This document shows positions 19,197 to 29,612 of a stretch of DNA of 64,000 nucleotides, one piece after another. A program made the position numbers and the translations under genes. The first letter of the stretch is position 1. The number at the start of each line of letters is the position of its first letter. The stretch covers positions 124,001 to 188,000 of the forward strand of contig VLTN01000056.1 in assembly GCA_008330645.1 (NCBI GenBank), given 5' to 3'. The notes below the pieces were generated by a model. The model did no database searches, had not been told where the DNA came from, and worked only from the letters and a program-made list of their open reading frames with translations. The stretch is from Cafeteria roenbergensis. Lineage: Eukaryota > Sar > Bigyra > Bicosoecida > Cafeteriaceae.

Positions 19197-19341
19197 GGCA
19201 CGCTCAGGGATCGCGCGCTGCGCGGGCTGCCGGCATTGTTGCTGCGAGTGACCCATTGATTGCAAAAATGTTGTGGCCGGCCCAAACAAGCAATTTCTGC
19301 GACGCTTGCGACTGCGCACTGCCCGCACTCTTCTGCCCGCA

Positions 19342-20319
19342 ATGGCTGCAGCCTCCGACTCGCCCAAGGGCCACCTTGGCCCTGCGGATTCGCCTGTGTG
19401 CGGCGTGGCGTCGGAGCGCGGCCACTTCCACTGCTACGCAGGCGGCAGGCCGCTCGAGTCCGCGCTCGGGCTGCCCAACACGCCCCTGCTCGGAATCTAC
19501 GGCCCTTCCTACTGGCCGTCCCTCCCCTTCGTGCTAATCACAGTGCCCTACGAGGCGATGGCAGGCGCGCTCCCCGCCGGCGTTTGCGCGCAGCTCGAGG
19601 GCGTCGCCTCCGACCGCGTGGATGCCTGCGTCGCTTGCTTCGCGCACGTGCCCGAGGCGCCGTCCCAGAAGCTGGTCTCCTCGGCAACCAACGAAGTCAA
19701 CGTGATGCTGCACTACTGGCGGCTTCAGGCTGTGGCCGCCGAGTGGGGCTCGCGGGAGGTCCGGGCGGACTTGGTGGTGGCGGCTGACTGCGCGTCCGGG
19801 GCGGCCCCACTGTACTTGGACCACTCCGACGGCGGGCTGCCCCTGGGGAGCTCACTCGCGGCGCCCCGGTCGGTCGTGGTGCACGGCGGGGGCGGCATCG
19901 CGGTGTCGCCCAACAACTGCCAGTTCTCGCTCACCGCCGCGGCCGGCGCCTGCGCCTCGTTCGTCGTCTGCGCGCGCTGCCCGGCCGCATCAGTTGGAGC
20001 AGCCGGCCCGGCCGTCCCGGAGCCGGCGCAGTGGCGCGCCAGGCCCGGGGCAAGCAGCGGCGGCAGGCGCAGCGGCGAGCGAGCAGTTGTCATGGTCACG
20101 GTGCTCCCCCGCGACGAGGGGGCCGAGGCCGCGGCTCGGGCGGCCGTGGCTGCGGTCCCTCAGCGGGCAGACGCTGTTCTTCGCACCCTGGCGGCCAGCT
20201 GCGGCCGGGGGGCCGCCTGCGCGGCGCTGCTGCGCGCCGTTGCGGACCACGTAGCCTGGGCTGCCTCTGCCTCCCCGGCAGCCCCGGCCGCCGCCGCCGC
20301 CGGCCCGCCGGCTCTCTAA
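19342..20319 (+). CDS. Unrecognised protein, 325 residues
   Basis: A single open frame from the ATG at 19342 encodes a protein I do not recognise. The first 210 residues have balanced composition and look folded (for example LLGIYGPSYWPSLPFVLITVP and NEVNVMLHYWRLQAVAAEW), with several cysteines. The end is Ala-rich. No signal peptide or membrane segment is obvious. It starts 146 bases after the EF-hand gene's stop on the same strand. The frame is the only sensible one here, so the gene is probably real, but no function can be given. Confidence 0.6.
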   Translation: MAAASDSPKGHLGPADSPVCGVASERGHFHCYAGGRPLESALGLPNTPLLGIYGPSYWPSLPFVLITVPYEAMAGALPAGVCAQLEGVASDRVDACVACFAHVPEAPSQKLVSSATNEVNVMLHYWRLQAVAAEWGSREVRADLVVAADCASGAAPLYLDHSDGGLPLGSSLAAPRSVVVHGGGGIAVSPNNCQFSLTAAAGACASFVVCARCPAASVGAAGPAVPEPAQWRARPGASSGGRRSGERAVVMVTVLPRDEGAEAAARAAVAAVPQRADAVLRTLAASCGRGAACAALLRAVADHVAWAASASPAAPAAAAAGPPAL

Positions 20320-20550: not shown

Positions 20551-22682
20551 ATGCACTTCTCCAAGACCCTGCTGGCGGCCATCGCCGCCGCCCTGCCCGA
20601 GTGGTCCCTCTTCTTCGTCGGTGAGCTGCTGATCCGGCCGCGGGTCGCGGCGTCGGCACCGCATCTTGCACGTGCAGGGGGCGTCCAACCCGGCCCAGGC
20701 GACGGCTTGCACGCCGTTGCCCGGCGCCTCCGGGCGGCTCGCACGCGCCCCGCGCCCACCCAGCCGCTGCCCCTCGCCTTTCCCCTGCGCTTGCCCGCGC
20801 CGCAGACTACAAGCAGGTGCGCCCGTCGCGTCGGCTGACGGCCATCGCACCCCGCGTCCCGCAGTTTCCGGGCTCGCCACCCCCCCGGATCACCGCTGGC
20901 TTTCGCCACCCGAGCGCCCCCCCTGCCCCATTTCGCGCGAATGTTCGCAGCTGAAGAAGGTCGCCAAGGCCGTTGCGTCGGGCGCCATTCCCGCGGCGGA
21001 GTTCTGGGCCAGCCTGGAGGCGGAAAAGGTGAGAGAGCGAGCTCGGAACACGCACGCAAGCTGCAACTGGCGACCACGCTTGGGCCCTCGCGGCAGCAAC
21101 CGAGACGCGCGCCCGGCTCCTGCGCCCGCCCCGCCCTGGCGCAGACCAAGGTCAGGCGCTTCTACCTTGACAAGGAGGCGTGGGCAATTCGCCTGCTCGC
21201 GGTGCTCGGCAGCCAGGTCGAGGACCTCGTGAGTTCTTGTTGCGTTTTGTTCTTCTGCCTCCAGCGCTCGTCACTCACTCGCAGCCACGCTGCCGTTTGC
21301 CCCGCCCGCCCGCGCACACCGCGCGCATCCTCCCGCATTTCCCCCCTCACCGGTTTGCGAGGGCAGCGCACGCTGCTTGCGGTGCGCCCGCGACTGCTGC
21401 CCGGCCTTCGCTCACGGCTTCCGCACCGGCGCAGGGCAGGGCCGCGAAGGAAACAGGGTTCCACCGCGAGGACGTGGCCGAGTATGTGCACGCGCTCGTG
21501 GCCAAGGCTCGGGGGCGCGCCGAAGGAGGCGACGGCACTGCAGACGACGACGAGGACGACGACGCGACGAGCAGCGGCGACGACGAGCCGTCCTCCGCCA
21601 GCGACAGCAGCAGCGGCAAGTCCCCCACCACCACCGCCGCCGCCGCCGCGCGCGCAAGCGAGGGCGGCGTTCTGGGGCTTTCCGGTGGCACTGCCCTGTC
21701 CGCGCAGGCTGCCGCCGAGGAGCTCGAGGCCCACCGCTCCGTGTTCGTCGGCACAAAGAAGGGCCTTCAGGACTTTCGGCGCGAGCTGAAGCTGCTCCGG
21801 CAGTTCATCGAGCTCAACGCCGTGGCGGTCCGCAAGATCGTCAAAAAGTTCGCCAAGGTGGCAGGGTCCCAGGAGCAGCGGGACGCCTACATGCGGACGC
21901 TGCGGGCAGACCCGGACTTCGCCTTCCTGCGGGCCGAGCTGGTCGATCGCGTTGTGGGGGACGTCGACGCGCTGCTGGAGCGGGTGGCCGCGCTGCGCCC
22001 GGGCAACTCCAAGTGGGCCCAAACGCGCGTCTTCACCGTGGGCTGCTTCGACCTCGCCCACCGGGGCCACGCCAACCTCTTCCGCGCGCTGCGGGAGTAT
22101 GGCCGGTACCTCGTGGTGGGTCTGCACGACGACGCGTCGTACTTCAAGCTGAAGCGCAAGCACACCGTGGACGACCTCGAGACCCGCATCGCGAACATCA
22201 AGCCGTTTTGCGACAGCGTCTTTGTCATCCCCAGCACGGACCCCACCCCGTACCTCCGCGCAGTGGTGTCCGAGCAGGACGTGCGCGAGGGCACGGTCTG
22301 CTTCGTGCGCGGAGCGGACATGCCGCAGTTCCCCGGAAGGGAGTACATCGAGTCCGTCATGCCGGTGCATCTGCTGCCGCGCTCAGACGGCGTGAGCTCC
22401 AGCCTGGTGCGCGCCATCTACCACTGCGAGGACGGCGAGGACACCGACCTGGTGCAGGCGCGGGCCATGGCCGCGGCGTTTGCGCCCCTCGACGACACCG
22501 GCAAGCCCTGCGTGACCGAGGAGATGGTTGCGGCCGAGCTGGAGGGCCTTCAGCGCAAGCGGGAGCTCGCGGACATTGCCCGCGCAGCCAAGGAGGCAGC
22601 GGCGGCAGCCGACGCTGCCGAGTGCGACGGCGCGGCGGTGGACACGCACGTCGCAGATGCAGCCGCCACTGCCGTGTGCTGA
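20551..22682 (+). CDS. SPX domain fused to a cytidylyltransferase domain
   Basis: Five exons are read: 20551-20620, 20806-20816 (11 bases), 20951-21028, 21145-21228 and 21435-22682, giving 496 residues with phase kept at every junction. The N-terminal half is an SPX domain: MHFSKTLLAAIAAALPEW, then DYKQLKKVAK, KVRRFYLDKE, and LRQFIELNAVAVRKIVKKF near residues 200-220. The Tyr/Lys positions that bind inositol pyrophosphates in SPX proteins appear present. The C-terminal half is a nucleotidyltransferase of the cytidylyltransferase family: VGCFDLAHRGHANLF with the HxGH motif at 290-293, YLVVGLHDD, and RSDGVSSS at 397-404, matching the RTEGIST-type motif. The likely reaction is transfer of CMP from CTP to a phosphorylated alcohol such as phosphocholine, phosphoethanolamine or glycerol 3-phosphate; the substrate cannot be read from sequence. 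Phosphate-status control by the SPX half is inferred. Confidence 0.9.
20806..20816 (+). other. 11-base microexon encoding the SPX DYKQ core
   Basis: The 11 bases between a CGCAG acceptor and a GTGCGC donor, joined to the final G of exon 1, encode Asp-Tyr-Lys-Gln. This is the conserved D-Y-K of SPX domains, directly before LKK in exon 3. Skipping it would shift the frame. Confidence 0.82.
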
Positions 22683-23035: not shown

Positions 23036-26000
23036 TCAAGCCTCGCCAGGCGTGGCGGCCCCCGCCTTCACTGGCGGGGGAGACGACACAGTGGCCTCTA
23101 TCCTGTCCCGCAGCCACTGCCTGCCCTCGGCCACTGCGGAGGGGATGTCCGGGGCCGCAAACTCGTAGAACCCCATTGAGTCGCAGGGATCAGTCGCAGC
23201 GTCCATCGAGGCGGCCTCGCCGTCCCCAACGCCCGCCGCCCCACCGTCAGAGTCGTCAGCGGCGGCGTCCTCAACAGCGGCGTCGCCGGTGTCTTCCGCA
23301 CCCCCGCTGGCATCGTCAGCGGCGGCGTCCTCAACTGTGGCATCGCCGGTGCCTTCCGCACCCCCGCTGGCATCGTCAGCGGCGGCGTCCTCAACTGTGG
23401 CATCGCCGGTGCCTTCCGCACCCCTGCTGGCATCGTCAGCGGCGGCCGCAGCATCTGCATCGTCCTGCTCTGGCTGCTGCCCCGATTCCGGCTGCTGCTC
23501 TTCGGCCGGGCTCGCAGCGCTGGCCCCGGCATCGGCGTCCCACTCCGGCTCCTTCTCGGGCTTGGGCCGGTCCTGGAACTCGTCCGGCCAGCGCTCCTCG
23601 TCGTCCTCCTCCCCGTACGGCTCCACGATGAGGTCCTGGTCGATGCGGAGGTTGGGCCGACACCGCCGAAGCGGAGTGTCGGGCCGAGGCGACGCGGTCA
23701 TCTTCGCGCGGCAGAGCCACGGCCGGCCAGAGGCATCCGTCACGATGACTGACGTCGGCTGGCGCGGCTGCTGCACGCCAATGCGGCCCAGCACGCTCGG
23801 AATGAGCAGCGGGGCGCCGGAGCTAGCGTGGCCGCGGCGCGGGGCCGCCGAGTCGACCGCTCCAGCCGGGCCATCGCGCACTGTGAGGGCAGCGGTACGT
23901 GTCCGGGCGCGAAGCTCCGCCCCAGTGACCCCGATCCGCACGAGGTGCGCGACTGATGCCCTGGAGATGAGGCGGCGAGCAGGCCGCGCCGAGACACCCG
24001 ACCCGCCGGCGGCAGGGCGCTCGTTGGCGGCAGCGCTTGATGCGGCGGCAGCGCCCGGCGGGGCATGCGCGCCCGGCGCGCCCGGCAGCCCACCCTCGGA
24101 CTCGGCTGCCAGTGCGTTACCAGGCGCCTCGGCGGCACGTTCAGGGGCGGGCGCCGGGCCGCCGGGCCGTGAACCCGCTGCTGCCCCAGCACGGGCTGCT
24201 GGCCGAGCGGCGCTGCCGGCGCCGCCGAAGCCCACCAGCAAGCTGCCCACCGACCCCTGCGACCCGCCCGCCTGCTGCACCGGCCGTCGCATGCCCGTCC
24301 GCAGGCCCGGCAGCAGCAGCCCGCTTGCCCGCCGCTGCCGCGCGTCGGCGGCGCAGCCAAGCCCGTCCGCGCCGCCGTCCAGGTCGGCCTCCACCATGGC
24401 GGACATCACGTCGAACCCTTGCTCGGGGCTGTCCGGCAGAGCCGGGAGGGGCTCTGCCATGGGCTTTCCGCCGCCGCTGGCCCCGCCGCCGCGCCCGGCC
24501 GCGTTGGCCGCAGCGCCACCGGCAGTCGGAGACCCCGTCGCGACGGCCAGGGCCTCGTCCGCGGCGTCCGCCAGCTCCTGGTTCGCCCACGCGGCCGGGA
24601 ACGACTCGGCACGCCGGCGGTCCAGCGAGCCGTCCACAGGGACCAGCCGCGGCTTCACGGTGGTCACGCCGAGCGCAGCGGCGAGGGAGGCGACGCTGGC
24701 GCCGATGCTCCTGCTGGAGCTGCCCTTGCGCGCCTGGGGCGGTCCTCTCGAGTCTTCGTCGTCGTCGTTGCGGGCGGGCATGTCGCCGTCGCCACTCTCG
24801 TCGTTTGGGGCGTCGGCGTCGAAGACGTTGGCAGAGCCGGTGGCCGCCGTGTCGGCGGCGCCATCCCGCCCGGGCTTGCGCGCGGACCCGCGGTCCTCCG
24901 GCGCCCGGGCGACCATTGGCCCCTGCCGGCTCCCCGCCTGCAGCGGGCGGGCCAGCCGTCTGGCCTCGACCGCTGGGTCTCCCCCCTTGAGAGCAGGAGG
25001 GGGCAGCAGCGCCGTGGCGGAGCTGGAACGGACGGGCGGCGCGCCCGAGGCTTGCAGCGGCGCTGAATGGTCTGGCTTGAGGCGAGCACTAGCTGCCGGG
25101 GGGGGAGGATCAGCGCAGCGCTCGGCGGGAAGAGCAGGGCGTGAGGTCGCCGAGCAAGGCTGAGCCGGGGCCTGTCGGGGCGATTGGACAGCGCTGCGGC
25201 CGCCCTGCGACGGAGTGGCAGAGCCCGAGAGCGGCCCAGACGGGGACACCGGCGCCGTCGGGGGCGCCGCGATGGCGTCCGGGGCAGCGTCGGCCTGTCC
25301 GTCTGGGCTGGAGGGCTGCGTGCTCGGCTGGCAAGAGAGCTCTTCTGGCAGAGCTTGGGTTCGCAGAGCGGCCCGTTCCGGCAGAGCTGGGGGTCCAGGG
25401 CGGCGGGATTGGCTCGTGGCAGAGTGTGCAGGCTGCGCGCCCTGCTCGGCGGCGCCAGACACCGCCTGCGCCGTCGAAGCAGCTTCGGGCGAGGCCGGCG
25501 GGGGCATCCTGGTGGGGAGCGTGGGTGCTGCGGCTGCTGCTCCGTCAGCGGCGTGGTCGGAAGGCGGCTCGCGTGCCTGCTGCGGAGAGGGCTTCCAGAT
25601 GGCGCGGTCGCCCTCTCTGGCGGCGCTGCCGCTCGGCGCGTCGACGCCCGCAGATGCCGCGCCCCGCGCGGGGGCTGGGCCGCCCGACACGTCAGCAGGG
25701 CGCGGGCCGGGCTGCCTCCGGGCTCCTGCCGGCCGGGGCTTGACTGGGAGCACCGGCGTGCCCCCGCGTTCGGTCATGGCCAGCCTGCGCTCCATCTCCT
25801 CGATGTGGCCGAGCAGACCGCTGATAATGCCCTCTGCAGCCCGCGCAGTCATGGGGCGGCCGTCTGCGGAGCAGCCTTGCTCAGCCGGCCAGGCCGATTC
25901 CCGGCCGTCGCCGCTCCCGTCGCCGCCGTCGTCGGGGCCGCAAGTCGGCGAGACGCTTGCCGGAGTGTTGCGCCCTGGGTCCAGACCAGTTCCCCTCCAG

Positions 26001-27754
26001 CCCACTGCCGCCGCTTCGCCGACGGCGCTCTGCTCAAACCGGCCGCGGAGCTCGGTGACGGACAGGCGGCTGCGGCTGGGCGCTGCCACGGGGGGGCCGA
26101 GCCGGGTGGGGAGGTCGGCCCGCGCCCCGGCACTGAGGCCGCCTCCGAGCGTGTCGGCGGGCAGCGGGTGGTGACTCTCCCGAAGGAGGGACGGCTGGGG
26201 TGGGCGGAGCGGCGGCACAGCGGCGGTCGGGGAGAGCGGGGGGGCAGCGGCGCCCGGAGGCGCCCAGAGGGTGCCGCGCGACCATTCCCCCACCTCTGCC
26301 GTCGAGGCGCCGCCGCCAGGAACACCGACACTGCCGCCGCCAGTGGCCGCACCTGCCACACGCGGCGGCGGGCCGGGCGACACGGAGGCGGCGCTGGAAG
26401 CGTCGCTCGCATCCGCCAGTGCAGCTGAAACGGCTGACAGACGCGCGGTCCGGCCCTCGCCGCCGCTGTTCACAGCGCTGCCGGATGAGGGCAGCACTGC
26501 CGTGGGGGCAGTCCCTCTTGTCGCACCAGAGTCCGTCTCGGGCCGCCACCACCCCTTGGACGGCGAGCCCCAGGCCGCAGAACCGTCGTCAGGGCGGCCG
26601 CTGGTCGGCCGCCGAGGCTGCCTGAGCGACTCTCGGGTGGGCTGCGGCACGGATACGGACCCGTTGGCCCCTGGAAAGGCGCCAGCGGGTGTGAAGTGTG
26701 GCCCGCCGCGCCCGCTGCGGGCAGGGCTGCCAGGACCCTCGACCAGGTCCATGGTGAGCGTGGCGGCGCCAGTCTCCGACCCGGCCTCAGCAGACGGCGA
26801 CCGCTGCAGCTGCAGCGGCGAGAACTTGGACCTCTCGGGCGCGGCGGTCTGAACGGGAGACGGATGGACCGCGTGCGGGAGGGCGGGGCCCCGACTCGCT
26901 CGCGAGGGCTCCGGCTGGCTGTCAGGGCCGCGGCTGCCGACGGACGACGGAGCTCTGGGCGACTCGGCGAGCCGCGTGCCGGGCCGCGCCGCCGGCGGAG
27001 CGAGGCTGTGGGCGTCGAAGAAGCGCTCCCAGTGGCCGTTTCCCCCGTGCGGAGCAACCCTGCTCTCACGGGAGCTGCCCCATTCGACCGCAGGGGCCCC
27101 GTTGCGTCCTGAGAAGGCGGAGCCAAACTCGCTCTGGACGCCGGCGGGCAGCGGCCCTGGGGACCTTCGCGCCCTCTGACGCGTGCCCGGCGACCACACC
27201 GGGCCGCGCGCGGATCCAGGTGTGCTGGGCGGCGTTGTTGAGCCATGCGCGCGACTTGGGGCGGCGGCGGCGGCTGCAGCCTGCAGCAGCGGGTTGGCAA
27301 CCCTCCGCTCGGACGGCGCCCCCTGGGATGCAGGCGCCGCAGCGCGCGGGGCAATGCGCGCAGTGAAGCTGGCCTGGCGGGCGGCCGCGAGCCTGGGGCC
27401 GGAGGGGCGCGAGCCGAAGCGCTCACCCGCGCCGGACGACGACGCCGGTGACTGGCTGGCAACTGGCTGCCTCTGGTCGCTCATGCGGTGCGCCGCCAGC
27501 AGCGGCGACCGGGGCGACGAGATGCCTCCGGAGCCACTGCGCGGCGAGGCTCCCAGAGTGCCTGCAACGTGCTCCAGTTCCTCGAGAGTCGCAGCGAGCG
27601 AGGAGCTCCAGTCCTCGGACGCATCGGCTCTCGCCCTGGGCGAGCGAGCGCCACCAGGTTCTCCGTTGCTCGAGGCTGCAGACGCGGGCCCGTTGCCGCG
27701 CGCGTCAGAGGCCTGCGCCGCGGGCGCGACCCAGAAGCTCCTGCCGGCGCGCAT
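23036..27754 (-). CDS. Long disordered Ser/Pro/Gly/Ala-rich protein, unknown function
   Basis: One open frame of about 1,572 residues from the ATG at 27754; the frame stays open further upstream to 28249, but that would run into the carrier gene. The sequence is almost wholly low complexity (Ala, Pro, Ser, Gly, Arg) with a possible short coiled coil (GLLGHIEEMERRLAMTE) around 25790-25840. The best-ordered segments are near the end: SVAHLVRIGVTGAELRART, then PSVLGRIGVQQPRQPTSVIV, then LRRCRPNLRIDQDLIVEPYG. After these come three 20-residue acidic repeats and a final FYEFAAPDIPSAVAEGRQWL. I recognise no domain. Long open frames also exist on the opposite strand here, but they are shorter and fragmentary. 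Confidence 0.65.
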   Translation of the reverse strand: MRAGRSFWVAPAAQASDARGNGPASAASSNGEPGGARSPRARADASEDWSSSLAATLEELEHVAGTLGASPRSGSGGISSPRSPLLAAHRMSDQRQPVASQSPASSSGAGERFGSRPSGPRLAAARQASFTARIAPRAAAPASQGAPSERRVANPLLQAAAAAAAPSRAHGSTTPPSTPGSARGPVWSPGTRQRARRSPGPLPAGVQSEFGSAFSGRNGAPAVEWGSSRESRVAPHGGNGHWERFFDAHSLAPPAARPGTRLAESPRAPSSVGSRGPDSQPEPSRASRGPALPHAVHPSPVQTAAPERSKFSPLQLQRSPSAEAGSETGAATLTMDLVEGPGSPARSGRGGPHFTPAGAFPGANGSVSVPQPTRESLRQPRRPTSGRPDDGSAAWGSPSKGWWRPETDSGATRGTAPTAVLPSSGSAVNSGGEGRTARLSAVSAALADASDASSAASVSPGPPPRVAGAATGGGSVGVPGGGASTAEVGEWSRGTLWAPPGAAAPPLSPTAAVPPLRPPQPSLLRESHHPLPADTLGGGLSAGARADLPTRLGPPVAAPSRSRLSVTELRGRFEQSAVGEAAAVGWRGTGLDPGRNTPASVSPTCGPDDGGDGSGDGRESAWPAEQGCSADGRPMTARAAEGIISGLLGHIEEMERRLAMTERGGTPVLPVKPRPAGARRQPGPRPADVSGGPAPARGAASAGVDAPSGSAAREGDRAIWKPSPQQAREPPSDHAADGAAAAAPTLPTRMPPPASPEAASTAQAVSGAAEQGAQPAHSATSQSRRPGPPALPERAALRTQALPEELSCQPSTQPSSPDGQADAAPDAIAAPPTAPVSPSGPLSGSATPSQGGRSAVQSPRQAPAQPCSATSRPALPAERCADPPPPAASARLKPDHSAPLQASGAPPVRSSSATALLPPPALKGGDPAVEARRLARPLQAGSRQGPMVARAPEDRGSARKPGRDGAADTAATGSANVFDADAPNDESGDGDMPARNDDDEDSRGPPQARKGSSSRSIGASVASLAAALGVTTVKPRLVPVDGSLDRRRAESFPAAWANQELADAADEALAVATGSPTAGGAAANAAGRGGGASGGGKPMAEPLPALPDSPEQGFDVMSAMVEADLDGGADGLGCAADARQRRASGLLLPGLRTGMRRPVQQAGGSQGSVGSLLVGFGGAGSAARPAARAGAAAGSRPGGPAPAPERAAEAPGNALAAESEGGLPGAPGAHAPPGAAAASSAAANERPAAGGSGVSARPARRLISRASVAHLVRIGVTGAELRARTRTAALTVRDGPAGAVDSAAPRRGHASSGAPLLIPSVLGRIGVQQPRQPTSVIVTDASGRPWLCRAKMTASPRPDTPLRRCRPNLRIDQDLIVEPYGEEDDEERWPDEFQDRPKPEKEPEWDADAGASAASPAEEQQPESGQQPEQDDADAAAAADDASRGAEGTGDATVEDAAADDASGGAEGTGDATVEDAAADDASGGAEDTGDAAVEDAAADDSDGGAAGVGDGEAASMDAATDPCDSMGFYEFAAPDIPSAVAEGRQWLRDRIEATVSSPPPVKAGAATPGEA
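23254..23433 (-). repeat. Three tandem 60-base units coding for 20-residue acidic repeats
   Basis: Three nearly identical 60-base units start at 23254, 23314 and 23374, with a partial fourth after 23433. In the minus-strand frame each encodes 20 residues containing DDASGGAEGTGDATVEDAAA. The unit is a multiple of three, so copy number can change without breaking the frame. Confidence 0.9.
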
Positions 27755-28127
27755 GGTGCGGCGCGGCCCAGAGTGCGGCGCGCGATTGCCACGAATCACA
27801 AGGCACCAGAGGCGCCTGCGCCTGGGGCGGCCGGAATAGCGAGCCCTGGCGGTCCGAGGGCGCGTTCCCCCTGACTGGCCCGCGCGCCAGCGCGATTCGG
27901 GGCCGGTTCCGGCTGCGGGGGCAGAGTGTGGAAGACCGGGGTTGGTTTCTGCCGGGCCTGCCGCTTGTGGAGATTCGCAACTGAGGGCAGAGCAACAGCA
28001 TTTCAGGCGGAGGCTGATGGGGGGCGGGGTCAGCAAGCAGCGCTGCCGCCCCAGGGACCCTCCCCTGACGGACCGCACCTTGCATCCATCGCTGCATAGT
28101 CGTATCGGCCGGAAGGGCGCCTGGGCC
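27755..28127. promoter_or_regulatory. Divergent spacer between the disordered-protein gene and the carrier gene
   Basis: These 373 bases lie between two divergent ATGs and should hold both promoters. No clear element is visible. The exact minus-strand start is uncertain, so the spacer could be shorter. Confidence 0.4.
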
Positions 28128-29612
28128 ATGCAGAGGCCCACCGACGACGAGAAGCGGGCAAGGTCGCTGATGCTTACCTCGCAGCTCGTCGCAGGAGGCG
28201 GAGCCGGGGCCATCACGAAGACCAGTATTGCCCCGCTGGAGCGAATCAAGATCCTGATGCAGCTCGAGGTGAGCGGGGCCGGCGGGTGCCCCTCTCACGC
28301 TTCGGGCCGGAGCGGGCCTGCGGCTGGAGCCCGGAGCGCTGGTTGAGATTTTACTTTTCCGGCGCTCGTGCTGCTCGTCCAGGTGGCAAGGACCACGCCC
28401 CACGGGTTTCCGCGGCCCGCGCCCTCGCGCCCGCCCGGCGCGCCCATGCGTCAGGCACCTGCTGGCCTTTGCGTTTGCCTCTCCGCACCGCGCGGCTGCG
28501 CTCCGATTGGCGCGGGGCAACGGCTCGCTGGGTGGTGTGCGATTGCGGGTGCCCGGTTGATGGCGCAGGGCATGACTCACGCGGCGGACCGCAAGTACAC
28601 CAGCCTCTTCCAGTCGCTCAAGACGGTGCTTCGCGAGGAAGGCGTGCTGTCCCTGTGGAAGGGCAACGGGGCAAACGTGGTGCGCGTGGTCCCGGTGTAC
28701 GCTCTCAAGTTTGCCTTCAACGACGAGTTCAAGGCCATCGTGCGCCGGTTCCGTGCCGAGCAGTCGGCGGCCGCGGTGGCGGCTGGCGGCGCCGCCACCC
28801 GAACCAAGCTCTCCTTCGGCGAGCGCATCGCCGCCGGCACGATGGCCGGCATGTTCCAGATCGTCGTCACCTACCCCCTCGAAGTGACCCGCACGAGGCT
28901 CACTCTCGGCCCGGGGCTGGGCCTGCAGTATAAGGGCATCCTCGACTGCATGCGGAAGACCGTGCGGTCAGAGGGCTTGGCCGGCCTCTACAAGGGGCTG
29001 GGCCCCACCATCCTCTCAGGAGCCCCCTACGTGGGCCTGCAGATGACTGGCTATGACACTGTCAAGAACTTCGCCACCCAGTTCGACGCCCTCTCCCGGG
29101 TCGACGAGAAGACCGGCAAGCGGCGCCCCATCCTCGTGGCGAGCCTCCTCTGCGGCGCGCTCGCCGGAGTCATCGCCCAGACCAGTGAGACGGCTTGCCC
29201 GCGCCCCGCCCACCCACCCCCGCCGCCCCGCGACCGAAGCCGCCGCGCCATCGCTCGGCCACCAGCCCGCCGCACCATGCCGCGAGCCGTGCCCCCCCCC
29301 CCTCCCCGCCCTCTCCGGCCTAGCCAGGCTTGTTGCGCGCTCTGACCCCGCACTCCTCCTCCGAATTGCGCCTCGCGACCGACCGCAGTCACCTATCCTG
29401 GCGACACGCTTCGCCGGCGAATGCAGACCAATGGCGCCAACGGCGCGCCCCGCGTGTACAAGAACACCATGCACTGCCTTCGCGCCACCGTGGCCAACGA
29501 GGGCGTGGCCGGGCTTTACCGCGGGGTCGTGACCAACGCGGTTCGGGCCATCCCTGGAGCCGCGATCCAGTTCATGAGCTACGAGGCGCTCAAGAGCGTG
29601 ATCTTCCTCTGA
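28128..29612 (+). CDS. Mitochondrial carrier family protein, adenine nucleotide/CoA carrier-like
   Basis: Three exons, 28128-28268, 28569-29184 and 29389-29612, give 326 residues, a normal size for the SLC25 family of inner-membrane transporters. The three family signatures are present: APLERIKILMQ in repeat 1, TYPLEVTRTRL in repeat 2 and TYPGDTLRRRMQ in repeat 3. Each is followed by the usual loop motif: VLREEGVLSLWKGNGANVVR, VRSEGLAGLYKGLGPTILS and VANEGVAGLYRGVVTNAVR. The repeat 1 start (LVAGGGAGAITKTSIAPLER) most resembles carriers for ATP-Mg/phosphate, AMP/ADP or CoA. No N-terminal EF-hands are present, so it is not a calcium-regulated SCaMC. The substrate is not proven. Repeat 3 has Gly where Leu is usual (PGD). 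Confidence 0.92.

Follow-up and report, generated by a model that had tools for sequence, protein, structure and literature searches.

Gene structure and domain architecture at the locus

The window, that is, the whole 64,000-nucleotide stretch of Cafeteria roenbergensis DNA analyzed here, contains on its plus strand a five-exon gene at 20551–22682, with the ATG at 20551 and the stop codon ending at 22682, which encodes a product of 496 amino acids (aa). The exon boundaries were placed by hand, and each of the four introns has the form GT..AG. Exon 1 (20551–20620) encodes the start of an SPX domain, MHFSKTLLAAIAAALPEWSLFFV, and is identical in FNF27_03150 (P0002), a predicted C. roenbergensis protein. 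Exon 2 (20806–20816) is a micro-exon of 11 bases encoding DYKQ; its Tyr25 corresponds to Vtc4 Tyr22, and the same residues are found in the predicted protein P0002. It is followed by exon 3 (20951–21028), which continues the SPX domain with LKKVAKAV and includes Lys29, the counterpart of Vtc4 Lys26 by alignment, and by exon 4 (21145–21228), which contains TKVRRFYLDKEAWAI and is assigned to SPX by its translation and Pfam. The 1248-base exon 5 (21435–22682) encodes an acidic/Ala-rich linker, the second half of the SPX domain, the entire nucleotidyltransferase domain, and the stop codon. Within this exon, all on the plus strand, lie the SPX motif KIVKKFAK (21834–21857), which provides Lys215, Lys218, Lys219, and Lys222; the CTP_transf_like domain delimited by Pfam (residues 281–406; 22032–22409); the HRGH motif (residues 290–293; 22059–22070); and PRSDGVSSSLVR (22377–22412), a motif of the RTxGxST type with a trailing Arg.

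The first-pass annotation of this locus had proposed that an SPX domain is fused to a cytidylyltransferase, and domain searches of the 496-aa product bear out this architecture. SPX was recognized in two stretches with a score of 86.6 bits (4.3e-24; cut-off 27.8), CTP_transf_like (PF01467) with 46.5 bits (5.5e-12; cut-off 21), and TIGR00125 with 32.7 bits against a cut-off of 27.7. Because KIVKKFAK and HRGH are both located inside the single exon 5, the fusion stands regardless of how the introns are called: it is real and visible in the raw DNA. The nearest protein is FNF27_03150, which matches over the full length at 99%, with 4 differences in 496 positions (R83K, V358M, E444A, and A494G), and belongs to a cluster of 10 member sequences with listed sources that include NCBI and the MMETSP transcriptomes.

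Two further features flank the gene. Just upstream is a 355-aa open frame (19252–20319, plus strand) that has no Pfam match at E 0.001, and downstream is a tandem array (23253–23446; 60-base unit, 3.2 copies, 96% matches) embedded in a long minus-strand open frame (23036–28294).

Spread of the fusion and conservation of its residues

In the first protein search, all 8 proteins scored contained both domains. A two-domain profile built from six domain-trimmed members was then applied at E ≤ 1e-5 (8000 candidates scored) and yielded at least 309 relatives; PF03105 and PF01467 were both present in each of the 120 listed, a result showing that the fusion recurs rather than its share among SPX or enzyme proteins, given that the query held both domains. 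Readable source names are in the minority among the 120 listed relatives and are mostly those of diatoms, with Pseudo-nitzschia multistriata, Nitzschia inconspicua, and Attheya named in full and partial names that we read as Coscinodiscus, Chaetoceros, Minutocellus, and Kryptoperidinium, the last being a dinoflagellate that carries a diatom endosymbiont. Seven of these 120 are named as complete MMETSP transcript frames and four as MMETSP peptides, indicating that the fusion is transcribed in relatives. The diatom proteins of P. multistriata (P0028) and N. inconspicua (P0070) have the same order of the two domains as the Cafeteria protein, but with a shorter linker and with C-S-S-T in place of V-S-S-S; P0002 and P0028 share 40% identity across 444 aligned positions. 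Given that Bigyra and Ochrophyta are separate stramenopile groups by lineage look-up and the fusion is present in both, it is either old or was transferred. The biological rationale given in the first-pass annotation, that algae swap phospholipids for other lipids when phosphate is short, does not apply to the host itself, because Cafeteria is a bicosoecid stramenopile (taxonomy look-up) and a heterotroph; diatoms, which alter their membrane lipids under phosphate shortage, do share the gene.

In the databases, the members are named only after one of their domains, as 'SPX domain-containing protein' or as 'cytidyltransferase like protein', and a search of an open-access library of papers found no description of an SPX–nucleotidyltransferase fusion. 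The earlier suggestion that the fusion is undescribed therefore holds for that literature, whereas the Cafeteria protein is by no means unique in this architecture. SPX–enzyme fusions are already known as a class, of which the nucleotidyltransferase partner is a new variant, and the previously listed SPX partners (EXS, VTC, MFS, and RING) omit Gde1, a phospholipid-recycling enzyme with an SPX domain (PMC7381174, PMC8749416). The architectures named in the excerpted text of a dinoflagellate survey are SPX, SPX-EXS, SPX-VTC, and SPX with DUF202 or CitMHS (PMC12388464). In P. tricornutum, six SPX genes are counted and three are named in the excerpt of the source (PMC8233357), so that one of the unnamed genes may be the fusion gene. 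In the Cafeteria genome, three further places bear SPX (on C10, C28, and C8); a single open frame was scanned at each, and Pfam recognized no second domain there.

Conservation was assessed in an alignment of 41 fused relatives hand-chosen from the 121 fused proteins collected, and both domains are present in all 41 (SPX at E ≤ 0.001). In the SPX domain of Vtc4, the PBC consists of Y22, K26, and K133 and the KSC of K129, K132, and K136 (PMC9911596); by alignment, the Cafeteria counterparts are Y25, K29, and K219 (PBC) and K215, K218, and K222 (KSC), so that the basic residues noted at the first pass are kept. Among the rows with a letter at the respective position, Tyr25 is kept in 36 of 37 and Lys29 in 37 of 38, and the four lysines of KIVKKFAK are each found in all 41 rows. 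Position 2 is Lys in 34 of the 37 rows with a letter but His in the Cafeteria fusion. The match to the solved SPX protein 7e40 covers the two ends of the domain; either stretch is weak alone, but combined they reach 3.4e-6. Judging from these residues, the SPX half probably binds inositol pyrophosphates.

The catalytic-type residues are likewise well preserved. His290, Gly292, His293, Lys321, Lys323, Arg397, Ser402, Ser403, and Arg407 are invariant (41/41), and the Arg of HRGH is present in 40 of 41 rows; thus, the HRGH and RSDGVSSS motifs read at the first pass are indeed present, with their key residues nearly invariant. The mean frequency of the top residue is 0.86 in the enzyme domain and 0.76–0.78 in two SPX core stretches; two further SPX stretches reach 0.55–0.59, and the linker, where 51 of 82 columns were usable, reaches 0.46.

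Relationships of the nucleotidyltransferase domain

Cytidylyltransferases lead the solved proteins that match the profile of the clade. The highest score was obtained for ethanolamine-phosphate cytidylyltransferase (79.5 bits for its two repeats together, 49.0 for the first alone), followed by glycerol-3-phosphate cytidylyltransferases (62.5 and 54.9 bits), a 'putative cytidylyltransferase' (5x9q; 41.7 bits), and choline-phosphate cytidylyltransferase (about 32 bits), the weakest of the three cytidylyltransferase kinds; a lipopolysaccharide-core protein (26.3 bits) and others come below. The best single-domain match is TagD/TarD (62.3 bits), with which the HxGH motif, the lysines at the place of LKxK, and the GDD and PRTEGIST-type motifs align, although its solved members are bacterial and lack SPX. 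Likewise, ECT/PCYT2 and CCT/PCYT1 belong to the same superfamily as the enzyme domain of the fusion and have these motifs in common with it. The top NCBIfam score was obtained for the heptose-1-phosphate adenylyltransferase family TIGR02199 (42 bits, below the equivalog cut-off of 181.5), and the glycerol-3-phosphate cytidylyltransferase family TIGR01518 scored 29.6 bits, also below its equivalog cut-off (165.4). The VSSSLVR segment of the fusion also fits the adenylyltransferase motif ISSTxxR.

Two phylogenetic trees were built. The 75-row tree (146 columns) included 18 of the 41 fused rows, 40 of the 84 usable shorter relatives, and 17 others, and carried a warning that its columns were too few and that long branches met; for the 65-row tree (144 columns), 12 rows of this set were removed (PPAT, the ECT C-domain, and 10 others, mostly near-duplicates) and 2 were added. 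Each tree contained three CCT/ECT reference rows, with CCT on a long branch, and rows labeled HldE-like by our own assignment from frame length and motif. In both trees, the enzyme domain falls in a clade apart from the CCT/ECT, TagD, and HldE-like rows (support 95/94 in the 75-row tree and 100/99 in the 65-row tree), and the fused rows come together at 100/97 and 100/98, respectively, with a few shorter rows intermixed. In the 65-row tree, the three CCT/ECT rows are separated from all others at 100/99, the HldE-like rows form their own group, and TagD/TarD occupies a separate branch beside the fusion clade with weak support (92/48). Since neither tree places the enzyme domain among the CCT/ECT, TagD, or HldE-like rows, the substrate is not transferable from any of these enzymes, and on the two trees together with the NCBIfam cut-offs we rejected a canonical CCT/ECT/GCT identity. 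The first-pass placement of the enzyme at the committed step of a CDP-alcohol pathway was therefore too strong, a CDP-alcohol product being an inference for a domain that does not group with the CCT/ECT rows.

Standalone proteins also belong to the clade, including one of the bdelloid rotifer Didymodactylos and some labeled Opistho-1/2, which we read as unicellular opisthokonts, as do two prokaryotic proteins, one archaeal and one alphaproteobacterial. By a simple pattern, the residue preceding the TxG/SxG motif is Arg in all 121 fused proteins collected, whereas among 120 shorter relatives it is Tyr in 53, Arg in 40, and neither in 27; the Tyr/Arg switch goes with the fusion. Some of the Arg-type shorter relatives look like fragments of fusions, given that an SPX-type lysine motif lies upstream in 4 of the 40 and that several fall with the fusions in the trees. 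The short relatives P0161–P0239, which include the 53 of the Tyr type, are uncharacterized standalone nucleotidyltransferases.

The prokaryotic relatives were found by scanning a prokaryote genome collection with two short patterns, which gave 76 candidate stretches, 2 of which encode relatives. In a Helarchaeota genome (an Asgard archaeon), L030:3977–5356 encodes a 459-residue protein with the nucleotidyltransferase domain of the clade at the N terminus and, in place of SPX as the partner, phosphatidylserine decarboxylase (PF02666; 133.5 bits) at the C terminus, and the next reading frame (L030:5393–6160) encodes a CDP-alcohol phosphatidyltransferase (60.4 bits). The alphaproteobacterial protein (L031) is 37% identical to the archaeal one over 242 aligned positions, and the linker is common to both; no decarboxylase domain was found in L031 by Pfam, the frame stopping before one, near the contig end. 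Of 227 genomes sampled from the archaeal phylum, 3 match at E 1e-12, the already-known one strongly (179.7 bits) and the other two at 70.1 and 63.1 bits, on the TagD side in the trees; in the second phylum sampled, 195 of 294 genomes match, again with the already-known one strong (174.8 bits) and the rest at about 73 bits or less. Among these 227 and 294 genomes, there was no strong additional case of a cytidylyltransferase–decarboxylase fusion. The one complete archaeal locus offers a slender hint of a phospholipid head-group role for the clade.

In viral contigs, P0002 matched 1 locus and the CT alignment A4 matched 5, and A6, A3, and the CT–decarboxylase protein matched none. The match to P0002 is 29% identical, the five A4 matches span only 43–44 residues, and the reading frames at the three of six loci inspected (L005, L032, and L035) are 153–182 aa long. 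On these scans, a viral origin was rejected. A 15-row subgroup of the short relatives in the trees looks giant-virus-like, an impression that the viral-contig scans did not confirm.

Possible functions of the fusion protein

The explanation we favor, with about an even chance of being correct, is that the protein is an SPX-gated enzyme of an uncharacterized clade that makes a CDP-alcohol for phospholipid head groups. The SPX half would bind inositol pyrophosphates, whose level tracks cell phosphate, and the C-terminal half, as an active nucleotidyltransferase, would most likely move CMP from CTP onto a phospho-alcohol destined for phospholipid head groups. Ligand-bound SPX may favor the active enzyme when phosphate is ample, with activity dropping in starvation and phosphate being spared, by analogy with known SPX proteins. 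What is observed is the fusion, its conservation between bicosoecid and diatom members, and the conserved binding and catalytic-type residues; ligand binding, catalysis, the acceptor, the choice of CTP over ATP, and the direction in which SPX would act are what we infer.

Several observations support the CDP-alcohol reading, in particular, the lead of cytidylyltransferases among the solved matches, the archaeal fusion to phosphatidylserine decarboxylase, and the gene content of the Cafeteria genome, which was searched exon by exon, a procedure that may miss split genes. Parts of a CDP-alcohol pathway are present: there are three matches to CDP-alcohol phosphotransferases and six to the choline-kinase family (on three contigs, four above the cut-off). 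The genome also has a PPIP5K N-terminal domain (122.8 bits). PF01467 gave 7 matches in 6 places at E ≤ 0.1, including the fusion and two weak ones; a gene on C9 has two such domains and is read as a two-domain ethanolamine enzyme (ECT) separate from the fusion, and the frames on C31 and C22 are read as phosphopantetheine- and NadD-type enzymes. A response of this pathway to phosphate is also on record: in phosphate-starved fission yeast, CDP-choline is reported nearly to vanish, with cytidyltransferase mRNA up twofold and choline kinase mRNA down sixfold (PMC11980565), and because the latter fall may explain the loss, the controlled step is not pinned to the cytidyltransferase. The same reading is weakened by the separation in the trees, the ISSTxxR-like motif, the top NCBIfam score for a heptose adenylyltransferase, the His at position 2, and the inositol phosphate kinase family PF03770, for which there were 0 candidates in the Cafeteria genome, where introns may hide them.

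Comparison with known SPX proteins cuts both ways. Vtc4, an SPX–polyphosphate polymerase, has the same PBC and KSC residues but acts within a membrane complex and lacks an HxGH nucleotidyltransferase; in yeast, mutation of its SPX binding residues is reported to cut InsP6-stimulated polyphosphate synthesis by the same chain (PMC9911596). The fungal Gde1 (SPX–ankyrin–glycerophosphodiesterase) likewise joins an N-terminal SPX to an enzyme of phospholipid metabolism, but it degrades glycerophosphocholine and has ankyrin repeats and an unrelated catalytic domain, whereas the Cafeteria domain would build. In fission yeast, both the SPX site and the catalytic site of Gde1 matter for inositol-pyrophosphate toxicity, although according to the authors Gde1 catalysis may not strictly require SPX, and mutation of the Vtc4 binding site did not copy the loss of Vtc4 (PMC8749416); another source describes regulation of Gde1 by its SPX domain as unconfirmed (PMC7381174). 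Thus, judging from the fission yeast results, control by SPX is not a given even in known fusions.

A bolder form of the CDP-alcohol reading, which we advance tentatively and regard as somewhat doubtful, is a switch within one polypeptide, widespread in stramenopiles, in which inositol pyrophosphate on SPX would control the committed activation of the head group, possibly in place of a missing canonical CCT. CCT itself is regulated by membrane binding and is not known to be regulated by SPX. We know of no earlier case of SPX control of lipid building, the known roles being in phosphate transport, storage, recycling, and gene expression. In P. tricornutum, the connection between phosphate shortage and membrane lipids has been approached through the SPX–PHR transcription cascade (PMC8233357). 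With a sensor and a nucleotide-activating enzyme in one protein, a direct post-translational link between phosphate and lipids becomes testable, and the fusion points to an uncharacterized nucleotidyltransferase clade that extends over stramenopiles, a rotifer, and an Asgard archaeon.

A possible but rather unlikely alternative is that the SPX-gated nucleotidyltransferase works outside phospholipids and activates a different phosphorylated compound for use in surface glycans or storage, with a sugar phosphate, polyol phosphate, or phosphonate as the acceptor and perhaps ATP as the nucleotide. The position of the clade apart from the CCT/ECT and TagD rows, the resemblance of SSSLVR/SSTLIR to the adenylyltransferase motif, and the best NCBIfam family, far under its cut-off as it is, would fit such a role, but the cytidylyltransferases at the head of the solved matches and the joining of the archaeal relative to a phospholipid enzyme speak for the CDP-alcohol reading. 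More improbable still is that the fusion is the choline-phosphate cytidylyltransferase of the lineage. In the exon-by-exon search, a mammalian CCT core query had no match other than both domains of the ECT-like gene on C9, so that no canonical CCT was seen in the Cafeteria genome, and the choline-kinase-family matches would suit a replacement; however, that search may overlook a split CCT gene, the query had no match to the fusion gene either, and CCT is the weakest of the three kinds among the solved matches.

We consider it very unlikely that the nucleotidyltransferase domain is mainly a metabolite sensor or scaffold, with SPX passing a signal to another protein, for example a transcription factor: an SPX-only protein of P. 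tricornutum has been placed upstream of the regulator PHR in a transcription cascade (PMC8233357), but the invariance of the catalytic-type residues in all 41 relatives would be unusual for a dead enzyme. Finally, a merger of two adjacent genes by a wrong gene model, for which we found no evidence, is refuted at the DNA level by the junction within one exon, and both domains also occur together in relatives from many different contigs, of which some have transcript names.
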